Positions 17,101-25,534 of a DNA stretch of 32,230 nt are shown here, piece by piece. The position numbers and the translations under genes are program-made. The stretch spans positions 1 to 32,230 of the forward strand of contig JAFEBY010000046.1 of NCBI GenBank assembly GCA_018242465.1, written 5' to 3'. How positions within the stretch are numbered: position 1 is the first letter of the stretch; every line of letters starts with the position of its first letter. This DNA comes from Pseudomonadota bacterium. GTDB lineage: Bacteria; Pseudomonadota; Gammaproteobacteria; Xanthomonadales; Xanthomonadaceae. The notes beneath the pieces are model-generated. The model was not told the origin of the DNA and did no database searches. It saw nothing but the letters and a program-made list of their open reading frames with translations.

Positions 17101-18073
17101 GCGGCACCACTTCGGTACTGCGATAGTTGCGTCGTTCCAGCGCCCGGTGTGCATCGCGGATCTCGCGCTCGCCCGGCAGGAAGATCAGCGTGTCCCCGAG
17201 CGGGTTTTCGCGGGTGATTTCATCGCAGGCGGCGACGATGCCATCCAGCACCGTGCGTTCGCCGCCCTCTTCGCCTTCTCCTTCGAGTGGGCGATGGCGG
17301 ATCTCCACCGGATACGTACGCCCTTCCACTTCCACCACGGGCGCACCGCCGAAATGCGCAGCGAAACGGGAGGTGTCGATGGTTGCGGAAGTGACAATCA
17401 ACTTCAGATCAGGCCGCTTCTGCAACAGCTGCCTGAGATAGCCGAGCAGGAAATCGATGTTGAGGCTGCGTTCGTGCGCCTCGTCGATGATGATGGTGTC
17501 GTACCGCGACAGCCAGCGATCGGAATGGATCTCCGCCAGCAGGATGCCATCGGTCATGAACTTGATCGCCGTGGTGTCGCCGACCTGGTCGTTGAAACGC
17601 ACCTGATAGCCGACCGCACCGCCCATCGGCACCTGCAATTCCTCGGCCACGCGGCGTGCCACCGATCGCGCCGCGATCCGTCGCGGCTGGGTGCAACCGA
17701 TCATCCCTGCCTGCCCGCGCCCGGCCAGCAGGCACAACTTCGGCAATTGCGTGGTCTTGCCTGAACCGGTTTCGCCGGCGATCACCACCACTTGGTGGGT
17801 GCGGATCAGCTCGATGATCTCGTCGGCGTGGGTGGCGATCGGCAGGTCGGCATTGAGCATCGCCGTCGGCAGTTGCGCGGCGCGTGCCTCGCGCGCAGAG
17901 ATCGACACTTGCAACTTCGCGGTGAAAGCCTCGCGCAACGCGGCATCGTTTGGCTTGGCCTGCCACTTGGCCAGCAATCCGAGCAGGCGGCCACGGTCAC
18001 GGGTCGACGCGCCGTCAATGGCGTGCCGGGCCTGGGATAGCTCGGATCGCGGAGAAATTTCAGCGGGTGACAA
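14177..18073 (-). CDS. hrpA: ATP-dependent RNA helicase HrpA
   Basis: A DEAH-box RNA helicase; in E. coli HrpA resolves stalled ribosomes. Motif I GETGSGKTTQLPK starts at residue 100, exactly as in E. coli HrpA when TTG 18073 is used. Then come TQPRRIAARSVA, motif II DEAHERSLN, motif III SATID, ATNVAETSLTVP, and motif VI QRAGRCGR. A winged-helix/HA2 region and OB fold follow, and the last 500 or so residues match the long C-terminal extension (DUF3418) of HrpA. Length of 1298 compares with 1300 in E. coli. Start is uncertain: ATG 18124 is in frame and adds 17 residues with no family resemblance; neither has a good Shine-Dalgarno sequence. It diverges from the trp operon and is followed after 12 bases by relA. 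Confidence 0.95.
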   Translation of the reverse strand: MSPAEISPRSELSQARHAIDGASTRDRGRLLGLLAKWQAKPNDAALREAFTAKLQVSISAREARAAQLPTAMLNADLPIATHADEIIELIRTHQVVVIAGETGSGKTTQLPKLCLLAGRGQAGMIGCTQPRRIAARSVARRVAEELQVPMGGAVGYQVRFNDQVGDTTAIKFMTDGILLAEIHSDRWLSRYDTIIIDEAHERSLNIDFLLGYLRQLLQKRPDLKLIVTSATIDTSRFAAHFGGAPVVEVEGRTYPVEIRHRPLEGEGEEGGERTVLDGIVAACDEITRENPLGDTLIFLPGEREIRDAHRALERRNYRSTEVVPLYARLSAKDQDKVFQPGPKRRIVLATNVAETSLTVPRIRYVVDPGFARVKRYSPRQKLDRLHIEEISQASANQRAGRCGRIADGVCIRLYSEADSAARAEFTDPEIRRSALAGVILRMLSIGLGEIERFPFLDAPDPRAIADGWQQLTELGAIDANRKLTAIGRQMARLPVDVKLARMLIAAHTHGCLREMLAIASFLGIQDPRERPADARAAADTAHAQFADPKSEFVGIWNLWEAYRAAHEEMSQSQLRKWAEKNFLGFLRLREWRELHRQLKLQCVELGWSDEANPKGAEYASLHRALIAGLPAQIGHLGERGVYEGPRGRRFQLFPGSALAKKPSPWLLSATLLDTEKVWAITNATIEPEWAISELPHLLARRHHDPHWSRSQGRVLGSEQISLFGLVLAPKKPVHYGALYPEESRAIFVRDGLVTGEINTRSGFLASNLRTLELAKEEEAKQRRAGLVVDEDWQARWYLDRLPPHVHNAQALDAWWKALSKEAQATLEWTRNDLLVADETDAARFPPYLAIGDVRLAVRYRFEPGALDDGMTLVVPLHLLNALDEARLSWLAPGFVQDKATALIKSLPKVLRRNFVPAPDFGRAFAEAHREPEADAFVSTLARFLKRLSGVEVGAIDFDEASIEPHLRMNLQVQDESGKNVIASSRDLAELRVKFGARAQRAFAGRAARDLARAGLIRFPDVAIPAQLTGDGGIPAFPALHDDGETVSLHVHAQREVAERHHVHGVRRLLRLALADKLKQARRQLPVQARTALLYAAIESALPRQGGKTTESDRLREDLVDGAFAALSADGLAAIRDAEAFAVRRDAIGKALFAEAMQRLQQAETILSLIADIRARLESKLMGWASGNLDDMRAHLETLARPGFLREVPADALSEYPRWLKALSLRAERAQRDPVKDQARMLELKPFVDALAAAVPDDAQARALRWELEELRVATFAQELGVKGGVSAKKLAGRITGLR

Positions 18074-18186
18074 CGGTCGGGTCCAACCAATTCGGGCGCG
18101 CGGACGATGCGGGCATCCGCCCATTGTCTCGCGTACGCCTCGATATCGGGGTGTAAGCGCCGCAGCGCAAGCCCGGCCCGGCCCAG

Positions 18187-18216
18187 TTGACACCGCCGCC
18201 ATCCATGCTGTTTCAT
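18187..18216 (+). promoter_or_regulatory. Predicted sigma-70 promoter of the trp operon
   Basis: A perfect TTGACA (18187-18192) is followed after 18 bases by TTTCAT (18211-18216), a 4/6 match to TATAAT. A start 7 bases past the -10 falls at 18223, the A of the trpL ATG. No recognisable TrpR operator palindrome overlaps it, so attenuation may be the main control. The rest of 18074-18186 shows no feature beyond whatever drives divergent hrpA. Confidence 0.6.
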
Positions 18217-18222
18217 GTGGCG

Positions 18223-18312
18223 ATGCACCATCTCCCCACCCCTTCCGCTTTCCAGACCGCGCAGCGCGCGTGGTGGTGGCGTCGTGGCTCGGGAGACTCG
18301 CCCGGCGCCTGA
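18223..18312 (+). CDS. trpL: trp operon leader peptide TrpL
   Basis: A 29-codon ORF beginning MHHLPTPSAFQTAQRA and ending at TGA 18310-18312, with three consecutive Trp codons (TGG x3, 18271-18279) followed by two Arg codons. Tryptophan is rare in most proteins, so a WWW run just before a terminator and seven trp biosynthetic genes is diagnostic of a ribosome-mediated attenuator. The peptide itself needs no function: ribosome stalling at the Trp codons when charged tRNA-Trp is scarce is the sensor. An in-frame ATG at 18205 would give 35 residues but lies upstream of the predicted transcription start. Neither ATG has a Shine-Dalgarno sequence. Both reading frame and codon placement fit the RNA structures downstream. 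Confidence 0.85.
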   Translation: MHHLPTPSAFQTAQRAWWWRRGSGDSPGA

Positions 18313-18340
18313 GCGCGCCTGCCTGCCGAATCCCCGAGCC
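18286..18340 (+). promoter_or_regulatory. trp antiterminator stem
   Basis: GGCTCGGG (18286-18293) is perfectly complementary to CCCGAGCC (18333-18340), an 8-bp stem. The right arm shares bases 18336-18340 with the left arm of the terminator, so the two folds exclude each other. The left arm begins seven bases after the last Trp codon, leaving it free when a ribosome stalls on the first TGG. A ribosome that reaches the stop codon would mask or disrupt it. I could not resolve a clear 1:2 pause hairpin. Confidence 0.75.
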
Positions 18341-18368
18341 CGGTCCGCAACGACCGGGCTCTTTTTTT
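18336..18368 (+). terminator. trp attenuator intrinsic terminator
   Basis: A perfect 10-bp GC-rich stem, GAGCCCGGTC (18336-18345) with GACCGGGCTC (18352-18361), closes a 6-base loop CGCAAC and is followed directly by seven T residues (18362-18368). It lies between the trpL stop and the trpE ATG, 14 bases before trpE. This is the strongest intrinsic terminator visible in the window. Confidence 0.9.
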
Positions 18369-18382
18369 ATCCGGACCCCACC

Positions 18383-19771
18383 ATGCTCCTCCGCTACCGA
18401 CTCCCCGCCGACCTCATCACCCCGCTCTCCGCCTACCTGGCGCTGCGCTCCCACGGTGCCAGCCTGCTGCTGGAATCCGCCGACCAGGGCGAGCGCGTCG
18501 GCCGCCACAGCTTCGTGCTCGTCCAAGGCGCGGGCGAGGTGAAGATGGCGCCTCCCGCGCACGGCTGGGTGCAGGCACTGCGTGATCTTGCCGGTCCGAT
18601 CCTTGCGGATCGCGGAACGTTCGATGCCGCCTCGGAACTGCCGCCCGGCCGCGACACCATGCCGGTCGGCGTCGGCATCGCCGGCTATGTCGGCTTCGAG
18701 GCGGTCATCGCCGACGAACCGACGCTGCAACTGCCCAAGCGCGATTCGCTGGGCCTGCCGACGGTATGGGCGCGCCGCTTCGATGCTGCGCTCGTCTTCG
18801 ATCATCTCCACCAGGTTGCCGAACTGCAGGTGATGGGTGACGATGAAGCTGCGTTGCGCCAGCGCCTGCTCACCCTGCGGCTCGCCCTCTCGCAGCCTGT
18901 CCTTGCGCAGGAAGATGCCGGATCGCCGCGCGCCTTCGCCACGATCAAGCGCACTGAATACGAAGCACATGTGCACAACGCACAAACCCTGATCCACGAC
19001 GGCGACGTCTACCAGCTGGTGCCGAGCCAGCGCCTGCGGATCGAACAACCGCCGTCGCCGCTCACCGCCTATCGCCGCATGCGCCGCCTCAACCCCAGCC
19101 CCTACGGTTTTCTGCTGGAATGGAACGGTTTCGCGTTGGCTGGCGCCTCGCCGGAAATGCTGGTGCGCGTGAGCGGCGGCGAAGCCGAGACCCTGCCGAT
19201 CGCCGGCACCGTGCCGCGCGGCGGCGACGATACCGAAGATGCTGCACGCTTCGAGGCCCTGCGCAGCGATCCCAAGGAACTCGCCGAACACCAGATGCTG
19301 GTCGATCTTGCCCGCAATGATCTCGGCCGCTGCGCCATGCCCGGCGGCGTCCACGTGGAGAAACCCTTGGCCTTGCAGCGCACCAGCCACGTGCTGCATC
19401 TCACCACCACGGTGAAGGCACGACTGCGCGATGGGCTCGATGCACTCGACGTGCTGTCCTCCTGCTTCCCCGCCGGCACCGTCAGCGGCGCACCGAAGCT
19501 GCGCGCCGCGAAGCGGATCGCCGAAATGGAAGGCGATGCCCGCGGCCCCTACGCCGGCGCGCTGATCAAGCTCGGCGCCGATGGCGCGTTCGACAGCGCA
19601 CTGATCCTGCGCACCGCCGTGTACGCCAATGGTCATGCATGGTTGCAGGCTGGCGCCGGCATCGTCCGCGCGTCCGACGCGCACAAGGAATACATGGAAA
19701 CCTTGCACAAGCTCGGTGCGCCCGCGACTGCGATGGGTGTGTCATTGGATTCGCTGGAGGGCGCGGAATGA
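18383..19771 (+). CDS. trpE: Anthranilate synthase component I
   Basis: TrpE makes anthranilate from chorismate, using ammonia passed from TrpG, as the first committed step of tryptophan synthesis. The 462-residue chain carries LLLESA (28-33) and GRHSF near the N-terminus, the element that binds feedback-inhibiting tryptophan. The chorismate domain shows GDVYQLVPSQRL, NPSPYGFLLEW, PIAGTVPRGG, HQMLVDLARNDLGR, FPAGTVSGAPKLRA and AWLQAGAGIVRASD. It is a little shorter than many homologues (about 490-520). The ATG at 18383 follows the attenuator; the same frame stays open upstream to 18215, but that extension runs through the terminator and has no family similarity. Its stop overlaps trpG as ATGA. 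Confidence 0.96.
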   Translation: MLLRYRLPADLITPLSAYLALRSHGASLLLESADQGERVGRHSFVLVQGAGEVKMAPPAHGWVQALRDLAGPILADRGTFDAASELPPGRDTMPVGVGIAGYVGFEAVIADEPTLQLPKRDSLGLPTVWARRFDAALVFDHLHQVAELQVMGDDEAALRQRLLTLRLALSQPVLAQEDAGSPRAFATIKRTEYEAHVHNAQTLIHDGDVYQLVPSQRLRIEQPPSPLTAYRRMRRLNPSPYGFLLEWNGFALAGASPEMLVRVSGGEAETLPIAGTVPRGGDDTEDAARFEALRSDPKELAEHQMLVDLARNDLGRCAMPGGVHVEKPLALQRTSHVLHLTTTVKARLRDGLDALDVLSSCFPAGTVSGAPKLRAAKRIAEMEGDARGPYAGALIKLGADGAFDSALILRTAVYANGHAWLQAGAGIVRASDAHKEYMETLHKLGAPATAMGVSLDSLEGAE

Positions 19772-20343
19772 TTCTTCTGATCGATGCACTGGACAGCTTC
19801 ACCTACAACCTCGTGCAGGCCTTCCAGGCGCTGGGCGAGGATGTCGAAGTCGCGCGCTTCGACCAGATTTCGCTGGATGATGTCCGCAAACGCAATCCGG
19901 ATTTGATCGTGCTGTCACCGGGGCCGGGACATCCGACCGAATGCAAAATCCATGTCGACATCGCCGCCAGTGATCTCGCCATCCCGGTGTTCGGCGTCTG
20001 CCTCGGCCAGCAGGCCTTGGCCGCGGGCAGTGGTGGTCGCGTCACCCACGCGCGCGAACCCTTGCACGGCGAAGCGACTCCGGTGGAACACCACGGCACC
20101 GGCGTGTTCGAGAATCTGCCGCAGCCGTTGATGGTCGGCCGCTACCACAGCCTGATCGTCGATGACGCCACGCTTCCGCAGGAATGGGAGATCACCGCGC
20201 GCTCGGCGTCCGGCGAACCAATGGCGATGGCACATCGCGTGCTGCCGCGCTGGGGCGTGCAGTTCCATCCCGAAAGCATCCTTACTCCCGATGGTCCCGC
20301 GCTGCTCGCCAACGTGCTGCGCCTTTCAGGTTTGCGTTCATGA
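19768..20343 (+). CDS. trpG: Anthranilate synthase component II (glutamine amidotransferase)
   Basis: A class I glutamine amidotransferase that supplies ammonia to TrpE; in many bacteria the same subunit also serves aminodeoxychorismate synthase as PabA. The 191-residue chain starts MILLIDALDSFTYNLVQAF, has the LSPGPGHP motif, the catalytic cysteine C78 in FGVCLGQQAL, and the His-Glu pair in WGVQFHPESI. Full length matches the stand-alone family and it is not fused to TrpD. The start ATG 19768 overlaps the trpE stop by four bases, and its own stop overlaps the trpD start in the same way. Confidence 0.96.
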   Translation: MILLIDALDSFTYNLVQAFQALGEDVEVARFDQISLDDVRKRNPDLIVLSPGPGHPTECKIHVDIAASDLAIPVFGVCLGQQALAAGSGGRVTHAREPLHGEATPVEHHGTGVFENLPQPLMVGRYHSLIVDDATLPQEWEITARSASGEPMAMAHRVLPRWGVQFHPESILTPDGPALLANVLRLSGLRS

Positions 20344-21371
20344 CCCTGCTCACTTCCCACAATCCGATCCGTCCACTGCCGGCCGAGACGGCCTCCGAGT
20401 TGATGCGGATGTTCGTCGACCAGGACACCGATGCTTTGCTGGTCGGCGCCTGCCTTGCCCTGCTCGCGCAACGCGATCCAAGTGCGGAAGAACTGCATGC
20501 GTTCGCATCGGTCCTGCTCGTCGAAGCGCAACCGTTCGATCGTGGTGATCTCGCCGTGCTCGACACCTGCGGCACCGGCGGCGACGGCGCCTCGACGGCC
20601 AACCTCAGCACGCTGTCGGGACTGCTGCTGGCGCACCTCGGCGTCCCCGTCGCCAAGCACGGCAATCGCGCATCGACCTCGACCTGCGGCAGCGCCGATC
20701 TGCTGGAAGCGCTCGGGTACGACCTGGCCCGCGCACCATCGCAACTCAAGCAGGATCTCGCGAGCAACAACTTCGCCTTCCTGTTCGCACCGGCTTACCA
20801 CCCGTTGCTCGGCCGCCTGCGCGAAATCCGCCGTCGCCTCGGCATCCCCACCATCTTCAACCTGCTCGGCCCGCTGCTGAATCCGGCGCGCCCCGCCTAC
20901 CAGGTGCTCGGTGTCGCCCGCGACACCTTGCTGGAGCCGATGGCCGGCGCACTCGCGCAAGGCGGGCTGCAACGTGGTTTCGTCATCCACGGCAAGAACG
21001 CACAGGGTGACGGCATGGATGAAGCCTCGATCGAAGGCCCGACCCGCGTGCTGGAACTGCGTGACGGCAAGGTCCTGGCGATGGAAGTCCTGGTACCGCG
21101 CGATCTCGCGATCGGATCGCCACAACGCGACGCGCTGTGTGTGCATGATCGCGCCGAAGCACTGGCGGTCGCGCACGGCTGCCTGCATGGCTCGCGATCG
21201 CCCGACTTCCGTCCCGCCGTCGCCGATGCAGTCGCGCTGCAGGCCGGCCTCGGATTGCTGCTGCACCGGAACGCACCGTTGTCGGAATTGCCGGCGGCCA
21301 TGCGCGAGTGCCGCGACGTGCTGGAAAACGGCTTCGACGCCCCCTTGCCTGCGCAGGACGTCGCGGCATGA
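20340..21371 (+). CDS. trpD: Anthranilate phosphoribosyltransferase
   Basis: TrpD joins anthranilate and PRPP to give phosphoribosylanthranilate. The 343-residue product shows the glycine-rich PRPP loop DTCGTGGDG (GTGGDG at 78-83), KHGNRAS followed by STCGSADLLEALG, NNFAFLFAPAYHP, and TIFNLLGPLLNPARP, all standard landmarks. The usual VSSKSGSAD is here TSTCGSAD, a small departure. ATG 20340 overlaps the trpG stop as ATGA, while the long upstream frame back to 20184 is only a shadow of trpG. Its stop overlaps trpC in the same manner, so expression is probably stoichiometrically coupled. Confidence 0.96.
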   Translation: MTLLTSHNPIRPLPAETASELMRMFVDQDTDALLVGACLALLAQRDPSAEELHAFASVLLVEAQPFDRGDLAVLDTCGTGGDGASTANLSTLSGLLLAHLGVPVAKHGNRASTSTCGSADLLEALGYDLARAPSQLKQDLASNNFAFLFAPAYHPLLGRLREIRRRLGIPTIFNLLGPLLNPARPAYQVLGVARDTLLEPMAGALAQGGLQRGFVIHGKNAQGDGMDEASIEGPTRVLELRDGKVLAMEVLVPRDLAIGSPQRDALCVHDRAEALAVAHGCLHGSRSPDFRPAVADAVALQAGLGLLLHRNAPLSELPAAMRECRDVLENGFDAPLPAQDVAA

Positions 21372-22177
21372 GCGCACTGGCATCCCTCCACGAAGTATTG
21401 CGTGATGCGCAACTGCCTGCCGGATCGCATCTGACCCGCGTGGTCGAGAGCGAGGCTGCCCGTATCGCCGATGCAAGGATCGCAGCAGCACCCCATCGCG
21501 CCATCGACGCACGTTTCGAGCACGCGTTGCGCGAGACCAAGGCGCGCAATGGCGGCGCCGTGATCGCAGAATTCAAGCGCGCTTCGCCATCCTTGGGCGC
21601 GTTTGCCGCCGATCGCGATTTCGATGCGCAATTGCAGGCGTATCGCGATGGCGGGGCAGCCGCCGTGTCCATCCTCGCCGAACCGGCATTGTTCCGAGGG
21701 GCCGCGGATGAGGTGCGCAATGCCGCACGTTATGGCATGCCGCGCCTCTACAAGGGTTTCGTGCTGGACGAACGCCATCTCGATGAAGCTGCAAGCGTCG
21801 CGCAGGCCGATGCCGTACTGCTGATCGCCCGCGTCCTCGGCAGGCACACCGCCGCGTTCGCCGATGCCGCCCGCGATCGTGGACTGGAGCCTCTGGTGGA
21901 ATTGCACGAACTGGGCGAAATCCCGTTCGCACGCGACAGTGGTTCGACGTTGATCGGCATCAACGCGCGCGATCTCGCCAGCTTTGCCATCGGCGCGCCG
22001 ACCGCCGATCCGTTGCGCGAGGCGTTCCCCGATGCCGTCCTGATCCGCGAGTCCGGACTGTCCACGCCGGAGGACGCGCGTGCGGCATTCGTACAGGGGT
22101 TTGATGCTGCGTTGATCGGCGAGGCGCTGATGCGCGACAACGACCCCGTTGCGTTCCTGCAGGCGTGCAGGACATGA
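21368..22177 (+). CDS. trpC: Indole-3-glycerol phosphate synthase
   Basis: TrpC closes the indole ring from carboxyphenylaminodeoxyribulose phosphate. The 269-residue TIM barrel has catalytic E68 and K70 in VIAEFKRASPS, a lysine in LYKGFVLDE (usually LRKDF), glutamate in LVELHE, asparagine in LIGINARDL, and glutamate in IRESGLSTPED. All six family catalytic positions are therefore occupied, though the KDF strand and some flanks deviate from common proteobacterial forms. It is a stand-alone TrpC, not the TrpC-TrpF fusion of enteric bacteria, consistent with the separate trpF next door. ATG 21368 overlaps the trpD stop; its own TGA overlaps the trpF ATG. Confidence 0.94.
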   Translation: MSALASLHEVLRDAQLPAGSHLTRVVESEAARIADARIAAAPHRAIDARFEHALRETKARNGGAVIAEFKRASPSLGAFAADRDFDAQLQAYRDGGAAAVSILAEPALFRGAADEVRNAARYGMPRLYKGFVLDERHLDEAASVAQADAVLLIARVLGRHTAAFADAARDRGLEPLVELHELGEIPFARDSGSTLIGINARDLASFAIGAPTADPLREAFPDAVLIRESGLSTPEDARAAFVQGFDAALIGEALMRDNDPVAFLQACRT

Positions 22178-22777
22178 GCCTGATCGCCAAGGTCTGCGGT
22201 ATCACCAGCGCGGACGATGCGCGCATGGCGCTGGCAGCCGGCGCGGATCTGGTCGGCTTCGTGCGTCACCTGCCGAGCCCGCGCCATTGCGAAGATCTGG
22301 AATCCGCGAGCGTCGGGGTCGGCATGCGTGGCGTGCTCGTGAGCGTGACCGACTGCATCGACACTGCCATTGATGAAGCCATCGGCTACGGCTTGGGCTG
22401 GATACAGCCATATCTTCCAGCCGGTGAGCGTACGCATGCGCTGGCGCGCGCACATGCCGCTGGCCTGAAACTGCTGCTGCCATGGCCGGACAGTCCCGAT
22501 CAGGAACCCGTCGCCACCGATCTCTACCTGTGGGAAACCGCGCCGTCGCAAACCGGCGTGCATGGCGGCTCGGGGCAACCCCACGCAGGGAAATTCCCGC
22601 CACCCGGGCCGTTCCTGCTCGCAGGCGGACTCGATGGCGACACCGTGCGCGCTCGCATGGACGCACTCACGCACGACCAGCTTCGGCGCTGCCTTGGCGC
22701 CGATGCCGCATCGCGCCTTGAAGCCTCGCCCGGCCGCAAATCCACCCCCAAAGTCCAGCATTTCACGAGCACCGTCC

Positions 22778-22794
<17 letters not shown>
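22174..22794 (+). CDS. trpF: Divergent phosphoribosylanthranilate isomerase (TrpF)
   Basis: Predicted to convert phosphoribosylanthranilate to CdRP. The 206-residue length, the position between trpC and trpB, and the motifs KVCGITSADDA (general base C8), AAGADLVGFV, HGGSGQP (131-134) and LLAGGLDGDTV support TrpF. However, the general-acid segment, usually LLDT, reads LWET (119-122), so Glu stands where Asp is expected. The C-terminal phosphate loop, usually DVSSGVE then PG-KD, reads DAASRLEASPGRKS (177-190), and the usual QLHG strand reads IQPYL. The fold is probably intact, but activity could be altered. No frameshift is evident and the gene is still coupled on both sides, with ATGA at trpC and a 17-base overlap with trpB. 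Confidence 0.8.
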
Positions 22795-23962
<1,168 letters not shown>

Positions 23963-24715
23963 ATGGATCGCCTTCTCCCCTTCATCATGGCCGGCGACCC
24001 CGCGGTCGATTCGCTTGCCGGACTGTTGCACGCAGCGAAAGCCGCTGGCATTGCCACCATCGAGGTCGGCGTGCCGCATTCCGATCCGATCGCCGATGGC
24101 CCGGCGCTGCAGTCCGCCGCACAACGCGCGATCGAACGCGGCGTCACCGCAGAATCGGTATTACAGCAACTGGCGACGATCAACGACAGCCCCGACGTCG
24201 TGCTGTTCACCTATCTCAATCCGTTGCTGCAGATCGGCAATCCCCGCCTGATCGACCTGTTGAAGAAGACGCCAGTGCGTTCATTGCTGGTGGTCGACCT
24301 TCCCTTCGGCGAGGAACCGGAACTCGAAGCCGCGTTGCTCGCGGCCGGCTATCCGATCGTGCCGTTGCTGTCACCGACGACGTCGATCGAACGCGCGAAG
24401 CAATTGCTCGCCGAACGCGCCGATCCAGGCCCATCGTCGCCATTCGCGCAGCGCTTCGCCTACGTGGTCGCACGCCTCGGCATCACCGGCGAAGGCACCC
24501 ACGATTTCGCGCCGATCGCCGAACGCGTGGCGGCATTGCACGCAATCACCGATCGTCCGCTTGCAGTCGGCTTCGGGTTGTCGGAACCGCAGGCGCTGGC
24601 CAGCATTCGCGCGATGGGCGCCACCCCGGTGGTCGGCACGGCATTGGTGCAAGCGTTGGCGAACGGCATTCCGGCGCAAGCCGCCCTTGCGAAATTCATG
24701 GAAGGCGTATCCTGA
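23963..24715 (+). CDS. trpA: Tryptophan synthase alpha subunit (N-terminally short TrpA)
   Basis: TrpA cleaves indole-3-glycerol phosphate and channels indole to TrpB. The 250-residue TIM barrel starts MDRLLPFIMAGDP, so it lacks about 15 residues of the usual N-terminal helix. Catalytic acids are retained: E34 in TIEVGVPHSDP (E49 in Salmonella) and D45 in IADGP (D60). FTYLNPLLQIG, VVDLPFGEE and LAVGFGLSEPQ follow the family order, and the loop-6 region reads LGITGEG instead of the usual GVTG. The ATG directly follows the trpB TGA and is in the same frame, so no longer start exists. No terminator is visible after it; the next gene starts 31 bases downstream. Confidence 0.94.
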   Translation: MDRLLPFIMAGDPAVDSLAGLLHAAKAAGIATIEVGVPHSDPIADGPALQSAAQRAIERGVTAESVLQQLATINDSPDVVLFTYLNPLLQIGNPRLIDLLKKTPVRSLLVVDLPFGEEPELEAALLAAGYPIVPLLSPTTSIERAKQLLAERADPGPSSPFAQRFAYVVARLGITGEGTHDFAPIAERVAALHAITDRPLAVGFGLSEPQALASIRAMGATPVVGTALVQALANGIPAQAALAKFMEGVS

Positions 24716-24745: not shown

Positions 24746-25534
24746 ATGAAATTCTCAAGCCTCCTCCCCCTCGTATTCGCAGCCCTATTGCTGGCTGCCT
24801 GCGCGACTGCACCGAAACGCACCGGCGGCGCCTTTCTCGAACGCAACATCGATATCGGCGGCAAGCAGCATCGCTACCAGGTCTTCGTGCCATCCACGCA
24901 AGCCGGTGGCAGCGAACCCGCAGTGATCGTGTTCCTGCACGGGACGGGCGAGCGCGGCAATGATGGCTCCAAGCCGACACAAGTCGGCATTGGCCCCTAT
25001 GTCCGCGCACATCAGGACACCTTCCCGGCGGTAGTGGTGTTCCCGCAGGCACCTGACGACACCGAGTGGAGTGACAACGTCGATCTCGTGTTCGCGGAAC
25101 TCGATGCCGCGAGCCGCGAATTCCACGGCGACCGCAAGCGCACCTATCTCACCGGCCTGTCGATGGGCGGTTACGGCGTGTGGGAAATGGCCCTGCATGC
25201 ACCGGAGCGCTTCGCCGCACTGGTTCCGGTTTGTGGCGCAGTGAAGCCGCCCAGCGACGAACGTGCACTGCTGGTCACCGCCGTCGCCAACGAGGCCGAC
25301 CCCTATGCCGCCGTCGCGAAGCGCTTGCAGCACATTCCGGTCTGGATCTTCCACGGGGCGAAGGACGATCTTGTTCCCCCCGACGACGACCGCAAGCTGA
25401 TCTCCGCCTTCCGTGCCTCTGGCGCGACGAACGCACGCTACACCGAATTTCCGGATGCCAACCACAACAGTTGGGACCCGGCGTATTCGCACACGCCGGA
25501 ACTCTGGACCTGGCTGTTCGCGCAGAAGCGCTGA
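24746..25534 (+). CDS. Lipoprotein alpha/beta-hydrolase, esterase or PHB-depolymerase-like
   Basis: A 262-residue predicted lipoprotein hydrolase. The signal peptide ends in the lipobox LLAAC (C19), so the mature protein is probably anchored to a membrane facing the periplasm. The alpha/beta-hydrolase core shows an oxyanion-type VFLHGTGERG, nucleophile elbow GLSMGGYG (S139), acid D207 or D208 in IFHGAKDDLVPP, and H240 in DANHNSW. This arrangement is typical of phospholipase/carboxylesterase and polyhydroxybutyrate-depolymerase-like secreted esterases. Substrate is unknown. ATG 24746 has GGGA upstream. Being only 30 bases after trpA without an intervening terminator, it may be partly read from the trp transcript. 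It converges with pyrB. Confidence 0.85.
   Translation: MKFSSLLPLVFAALLLAACATAPKRTGGAFLERNIDIGGKQHRYQVFVPSTQAGGSEPAVIVFLHGTGERGNDGSKPTQVGIGPYVRAHQDTFPAVVVFPQAPDDTEWSDNVDLVFAELDAASREFHGDRKRTYLTGLSMGGYGVWEMALHAPERFAALVPVCGAVKPPSDERALLVTAVANEADPYAAVAKRLQHIPVWIFHGAKDDLVPPDDDRKLISAFRASGATNARYTEFPDANHNSWDPAYSHTPELWTWLFAQKR

Follow-up and report, generated by a model that had tools for sequence, protein, structure and literature searches.

A putative leaderless tryptophan attenuator that appears to have moved together with its trp operon between Acidobacteriota and Lysobacteraceae

The region ahead of the trpEGDCFBA operon in the stretch of DNA analysed here (the window: 32,230 nucleotides, contig 80 of an assembly of 2.52 Mb rated 87% complete) has the make-up of a classical ribosome-mediated trp attenuator, and we hold it highly probable both that it works as one and that operon, promoter and attenuator were transferred together, most likely from a Holophagae lineage. 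This reading draws on the sequence elements themselves and on how they are conserved and covary, on a TrpE of foreign affinity, on the shared gene order and on insert-free sites in related genomes; our confidence is set slightly lower than it would otherwise have been because the comparison with native genes covers trpE, trpG, trpD and trpC only. The closest relatives of the window's TrpE are Lysobacter-like. All seven genes lie on the forward strand and have trp family matches: trpE (18383–19771, with its ATG at 18383), also supported by the TrpE of relatives, and, also supported by operon comparison, trpG (19768–20343), trpD (20340–21371), trpC (21368–22177), trpF (22174–22794, starting at 22165 or 22174), trpB (22778–23962, with a start chosen by us) and trpA (23963–24715), the last gene of the shared operon. 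The matches of trpG, trpD, trpB and trpA scored above the curated cut-offs; those of trpE (387 bits against NCBIfam TIGR00564, cut-off 517.7), trpC and trpF, the last a weak match, fell below their own, and the operon (18383–22794 in the window) is thus poorly covered by annotation models.

The leader contains a short ORF with Trp codons, a terminator between that ORF and trpE, and an antiterminator that excludes the terminator. The ORF (18223–18312, forward strand; MHHLPTPSAFQTAQRAWWWRRGSGDSPGA) has 29 codons and a stop, from the ATG at 18223 to the TGA at 18310–18312, and holds three in-frame Trp codons at 18271–18279 (TGGTGGTGG); another in-frame ATG, at 18205–18207, would precede the predicted transcription start, and for that reason we read the ORF from 18223. 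Also on the forward strand, the left antiterminator arm (18286–18293; GGCTCGGG) forms 8 bp with the right arm (18333–18340; CCCGAGCC), which overlaps the 5' arm of a 10-bp terminator stem-loop (18336–18361; GAGCCCGGTC-CGCAAC-GACCGGGCTC) followed by a T7 tract (18362–18368); the two structures are mutually exclusive, since both use 18336–18340. The Trp codons, both arms and the terminator lie exactly where the original prediction had placed them. If transcription starts at the leader ATG, as predicted, a ribosome would bind at the very start of the transcript. When charged tRNA-Trp is scarce, it would stall on the first or second UGG, leaving the left arm free to pair with the right arm, so that the terminator would be blocked and trpEGDCFBA transcribed. 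With ample Trp the ribosome would reach the UGA at 18310 and cover or pass the left arm, in which case the terminator would form and transcription would end near 18368.

A scan of genome contigs with the window's TrpE, which starts from exact peptide patterns and so reaches close relatives only, identified 65 loci. These included five from Lysobacter-like or 'Proteobacteria' titled entries (L002–L006; 82–97% identity), a truncated locus without upstream sequence (L053; 94%), 45 from entries with Holophagaceae, Geothrix or Acidobacteria in the title (L007–L047 and L049–L052; 66–71%), one Opitutaceae MAG (L048; 61%), and 13 diverged loci (L054–L066; 39% or less). At all 51 loci that combine at least 61% TrpE identity with available upstream sequence, a short ORF rich in W comes first and is followed by what resembles the 3' arm of a terminator, with a T run; a stricter hairpin scan recovered the terminator in 49 of the 51, missing L008 and L010, both of which carry mismatches. 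A W-rich short leader ORF also precedes trp genes at two further loci (L072 and L073). The trp attenuation logic proposed in the original prediction is thus well supported, as leader peptide, spacing, antiterminator and terminator are all kept in relatives. Its suggestion that the sequence details were particular to this lineage does not hold, as Holophagae and the Opitutaceae MAG have the same element ahead of trpE.

Aligning these 51 leaders with those of two congeners (G011 and G002) and of the window gave 54 rows, 53 of them distinct, and the covariation search that had been proposed as a check revealed compensatory changes in both helices. In the window itself the terminator folds with z = -5.87 (0 of 200 shuffles as stable) and the antiterminator hairpin with z = -2.87 (1 of 200), and a pattern scan of 18050–18500 lists the terminator, in two overlapping versions, with 0.2 expected. 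Consensus folding alone picks the terminator and part of the antiterminator. Across the 54 rows, 97.9% of antiterminator cells are paired, with 21 cells at 3 pairs changed on both sides, and 99.6% of terminator cells, with 30 cells at 4 pairs changed on both sides; versions of the helices slid out of register pair in at most 64% of cells. None of 500 shuffles reached the cell counts, paired percentages or covariation scores of either helix, related rows inflating such tests. Two measures did not exceed shuffles, namely the further pair types (446 of 500 for the antiterminator, 493 of 500 for the terminator) and, for the antiterminator, the count of pairs with changes on both sides (311 of 500, with one slid version having 4 to the 3 observed). 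From the fold z-scores and the covariation against shuffles, we rejected a chance origin of the attenuator.

A -35 hexamer TTGACA (18187–18192, forward strand) is perfect in all 54 leaders and starts 37 nt (39 rows), 36 nt (11), 35 nt (3) or 38 nt (1) before the leader ATG, which was chosen as the in-frame ATG best placed relative to TTGACA and is the single candidate in 41 of the 54 rows. The -10-like hexamer TTTCAT (18211–18216, forward strand), 6 nt before the leader ATG, is a poor match, and a strict consensus promoter scan listed none at the window's leader; judged by eye, similar hexamers end 6–8 nt before the ATG in most rows and are weakest in L048 and L007. SD-like words (GGAG, GAGG or AGGA) occur in 0 of the 54 leaders within the 12 nt searched. 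From the placement of TTGACA and the lack of an SD-like word we infer a leaderless leader ORF: the promoter geometry predicts a 5' end at the leader ATG in all 54 rows, with transcription in the window predicted to start at or next to 18223.

The third codon position is Trp in all 54 leaders, as is at least one of the first two; WWW fills the three positions in 32 rows, and the other 22 have a non-Trp codon at position 1 (14 rows) or position 2 (8 rows). From the first Trp position to the left antiterminator arm there are 15 nt in 54 of 54 rows, in line with the idea that a ribosome stalled on the first TGG leaves that arm free. When the leader was removed up to an assumed 12-nt ribosome footprint, with the A site's first base as its starting point, a ribosome at position 1 or 2 left the whole arm free and gave an antiterminator pairing probability of at least 0.85 in all 54 rows; at position 3 only 5 of 8 arm bases are free and the probability has a median of 0.61 and a minimum of 0.36, so that the geometry suits stalling at positions 1 and 2 and not fully at position 3. 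With the ribosome at the stop codon the terminator probability is at least 0.87 in 54 of 54 rows, partly by construction, since the fold omits the left arm. A point against the attenuator reading is that, with no ribosome present, a transcript ending at the right arm leans toward the antiterminator (probability 0.96 in the window, above 0.5 in 41 of 54 rows); the full-length transcript favors the terminator (above 0.5 in 50 of 54 rows, the antiterminator in 4). All of these probabilities come from equilibrium folding, and real RNAs fold while being transcribed.

The absence of a clear 1:2 pause hairpin had been noted at the outset, and this was a fair description: a long pairing can be drawn across 18255–18330, with z = -0.19 (81 of 200 shuffles as good), and no 1:2 hairpin appears in the consensus fold of relatives. 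On these two grounds a 1:2 hairpin is doubtful as a conserved feature. A possible pause hairpin (18257–18273, forward strand) sits immediately before the Trp codons and reaches into the first of them. The window by itself gives no significant signal for it (z = -0.44); its mean z is -0.79 over the 54 rows and -0.84 over 14 representatives of our choosing, against +0.41 for 42 shifted windows. In the Holophagaceae register 79.2% of its cells are paired (slid versions up to 69.0%), with a covariation score of 0.269 (slid versions at most 0.140) and 9 cells changed on both sides (slid versions reaching 15). These values are suggestive only: this may be a pause hairpin, or coding constraint may account for the pattern.

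Scans with an RNA model of the element covered mostly samples of genomes and were scored with stricter filters. Of 299 Lysobacterales genomes 107 had matches at E ≤0.001; only two, belonging to the same genus, stood clear, namely the window's own (G000, 92 bits) and G006 (80 bits), the next scoring 35.5. In Acidobacteriota there were matches in 28 of 347 genomes at E 1e-6, 26 of those at 57 bits or more, and trpE was present at all 20 of the loci examined (L112–L131); in the class of G329 and Geothrix, 54 of 93 genomes matched at 1e-8. The 5 of 398 Pseudomonadota genomes matching at 1e-6 included only the window's own above 36.2 bits. We checked 20 weak matches of 38 bits or less (13 in Lysobacterales, 2 in Acidobacteriota and 5 in Pseudomonadota) and found no convincing trpE near any of them (best E = 0.011, at L106); from these 20, the remaining weak matches were treated as chance. 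In Verrucomicrobiota the single match among 288 genomes was to the same Opitutaceae MAG (L048; operon locus L172), which has both operon and attenuator, no trpF being detected in that operon; its occurrence there reflects either transfer or misbinning.

Both the operon and its control region look horizontally acquired from Acidobacteriota, judging by sequence comparison. The window's TrpE has 66–71% identity to those of Holophagae (Acidobacteriota) and about 40% to those of other Lysobacterales; in a set of 60 genomes including the window's own, the best matches in genomes without the foreign type were mostly 36–45% identical. The foreign TrpE is present in 8 of 17 genomes of the window's genus; another 8 have a native-type TrpE, and one (G001) has only a pabB-like match. 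This last, a congener rated 99% complete, is possibly unable to make tryptophan. None of the 8 foreign-type genomes has a native-type TrpE as well, so displacement is documented for trpE alone; the foreign operon would stand in for native Lysobacteraceae trpE, and the other native trp genes were presumably lost too. In a tree of 67 TrpE sequences, 21 Holophagae rows, the Opitutaceae MAG and 8 Lysobacteraceae rows fall on one side of a branch of length 2.05 (100/100), this long branch meeting another long one (which drew a tool warning) and L048, L046 and L143 being left unresolved. The 8 Lysobacteraceae rows group together (94/84), and with a Holophagae MAG (L007; 97/90) whose class contains Geothrix genomes. 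As the foreign clade is unrooted, the proposed direction of transfer rests on breadth of distribution.

All seven trp genes occur in the same order at six Holophagae loci (L169–L171, L173, L178 and L179) with 44–79% identity, trpA of L171 being cut by a contig end, and in the one native genome compared (G009) trpE, trpG, trpD and trpC have 37–46% identity. The isolate Lysobacter silvestris carries the operon on a 1.18-Mb contig, so this is not merely a binning error. In the window and in G006 the operon lies between hrpA and pyrB, and in four further congeners (G004, G007, G014 and G015) trpE lies 4.9–5.8 kb from pyrB on one contig. Where congeners have no operon at this site, hrpA adjoins pyrB in 9 of 9 examined, with the aligned parts of the two genes 13–730 nt apart in 7 of them (six with native trpE, and G001). 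In G011 and G002 (L175 and L176) the operon instead lies between gpsA and trmL, with hrpA beside pyrB, and gpsA adjoins trmL in 5 of the 6 hrpA-site genomes, the sixth (G015) ending there. In the 9 other congeners no trmL was found within the 1.5 kb covered, which leaves the ancestral state of the gpsA-trmL site less plain. The gene names hrpA, pyrB, gpsA, secB and trmL were supported by a separate check. In an unrooted six-gene tree of 10 genomes a single split separates both foreign-type pairs from the remaining genomes, so that the tree does not decide between one acquisition with relocation and two acquisitions. At the hrpA site, an esterase-like gene (24746–25534 in the window; NCBIfam matches weak and below cut-off) lies between trpA and pyrB, also in G006; it was not found beside pyrB in the nine genomes whose hrpA site has no operon. 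In G007, G014 and G015 trpE and pyrB lie closer together (4.9 versus 5.8 kb), which suggests it is absent from these too.

A terminator that ends transcripts constitutively, next to Trp codons that are there by accident, would explain the strength of the terminator by itself; however, all 54 rows keep at least two Trp codons, the 15-nt spacing and an antiterminator that covaries, which makes such premature termination without Trp sensing very improbable. We give equally little credence to a switch in which Rho or translation, acting through the leader peptide, does the work of the intrinsic terminator. Leader peptides lacking a terminator are described from Actinobacteria (PMC1262725), with Rho as one proposed possibility, but here a perfect intrinsic terminator with its T tract overlaps the antiterminator. 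That the attenuator arose within Lysobacteraceae and only the genes moved, or that its likeness to Holophagae is convergent, might be argued from the W-rich leader ORFs that precede some native Lysobacteraceae trpE genes. Yet Holophagae share the arm sequences, the position of TTGACA and the pattern of residues flanking the Trp codons, the native upstream regions scanned held no comparable leader plus terminator, and the RNA model singled out only two of the 299 Lysobacterales genomes above 35.5 bits, so that an origin of this kind is most unlikely.

A third, unsampled donor that gave the cassette to Holophagae and Lysobacteraceae alike, or a transfer in the reverse direction, deserves more thought, as across a sample of 119 genomes this TrpE type has only about 40% identity to those of other Acidobacteriota, and a long branch leads to its clade. 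We nevertheless regard it as unlikely: within the class of G329 and Geothrix, 54 of the 93 genomes have the leader, versus a TrpE type found in 8 of 17 genomes of a single Lysobacteraceae genus, and the Lysobacteraceae rows group with a Holophagae MAG. Joint transfer from a Holophagae lineage of an operon under classical attenuation remains our preferred reading. A bolder version of it, to which we would give only tentative and limited weight, posits a distinct leaderless Holophagae class of attenuator in which the hairpin before the Trp codons takes over from the 1:2 hairpin, and which as a cross-phylum cassette of promoter, attenuator and operon entered one Lysobacteraceae genus twice, at hrpA-pyrB and at gpsA-trmL.

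The mechanism is a known one; what appears to be new, within the literature searched, is its presence in Holophagae, the predicted leaderless start across phyla and the apparent joint transfer. Our literature search, most subscription papers lying outside it, found no description of this element. Whole-pathway trp operons that moved laterally, with the foreign operon displacing native trp genes, were reportedly described by Xie, Jensen and colleagues; in the present case promoter and attenuator are seen to be common to the putative donor group, and congeners have insert-free sites. A leaderless, ribosome-dependent switch would need only the RNA polymerase, ribosome and tRNA-Trp of a new host, which may explain how such a cassette could take over.

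The element shares with the Escherichia coli trp attenuator (RF00513 Trp_leader) a Trp-codon leader ORF and mutually exclusive antiterminator and terminator before trpE, and differs in its predicted leaderless start, in that no conserved 1:2 hairpin was found, and in a leader peptide of 29 residues compared with 14 (PMC1183508). An Rfam scan of the window matched no family at gathering threshold, and membership of Trp_leader was rejected as its score was 13.6 bits, below the threshold of 41. The trpL attenuator of Sinorhizobium meliloti, which yields the sRNA rnTrpL, likewise has consecutive Trp codons and a position before trpE, and its transcript begins with the start codon of the leader ORF, as predicted here, but the peptide has 14 residues and trpE(G) lies apart from the other trp operons (PMC7298713); the scan of 398 Pseudomonadota genomes, an indirect measure of kinship to the Sinorhizobium element, had no match above 36.2 bits outside the window's genome. 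Streptomyces lividans trpL1 is described as a WWW leader peptide transcribed leaderless (PMC8079986), and with this and other actinobacterial attenuators (PMC8079986 and PMC1262725) the element shares an apparently Rho-independent terminator and three mutually complementary GC-rich segments; S. lividans differs in belonging to another phylum and in having a monocistronic trpE and an 18-residue peptide.

A search for TrpR by Pfam PF01371 matched 7 of the 13 genomes tried, the 87% complete genome of the window not among them; as PF01371 also matches in Bacillus subtilis, this says little on TrpR. Native Lysobacteraceae trpE genes (L078–L081, L083, L084 and L087) have a different upstream short ORF with Trp codons, e.g., ending NNAWRW or containing NWRWWPAATVRPA, and the scan found no intrinsic terminator there. 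At four of these loci (L080, L081, L084 and L087) the short-ORF ATG follows a hexamer such as TACAGT or ACAGTA by ~6–7 nt, and these native leaders may thus be leaderless as well.
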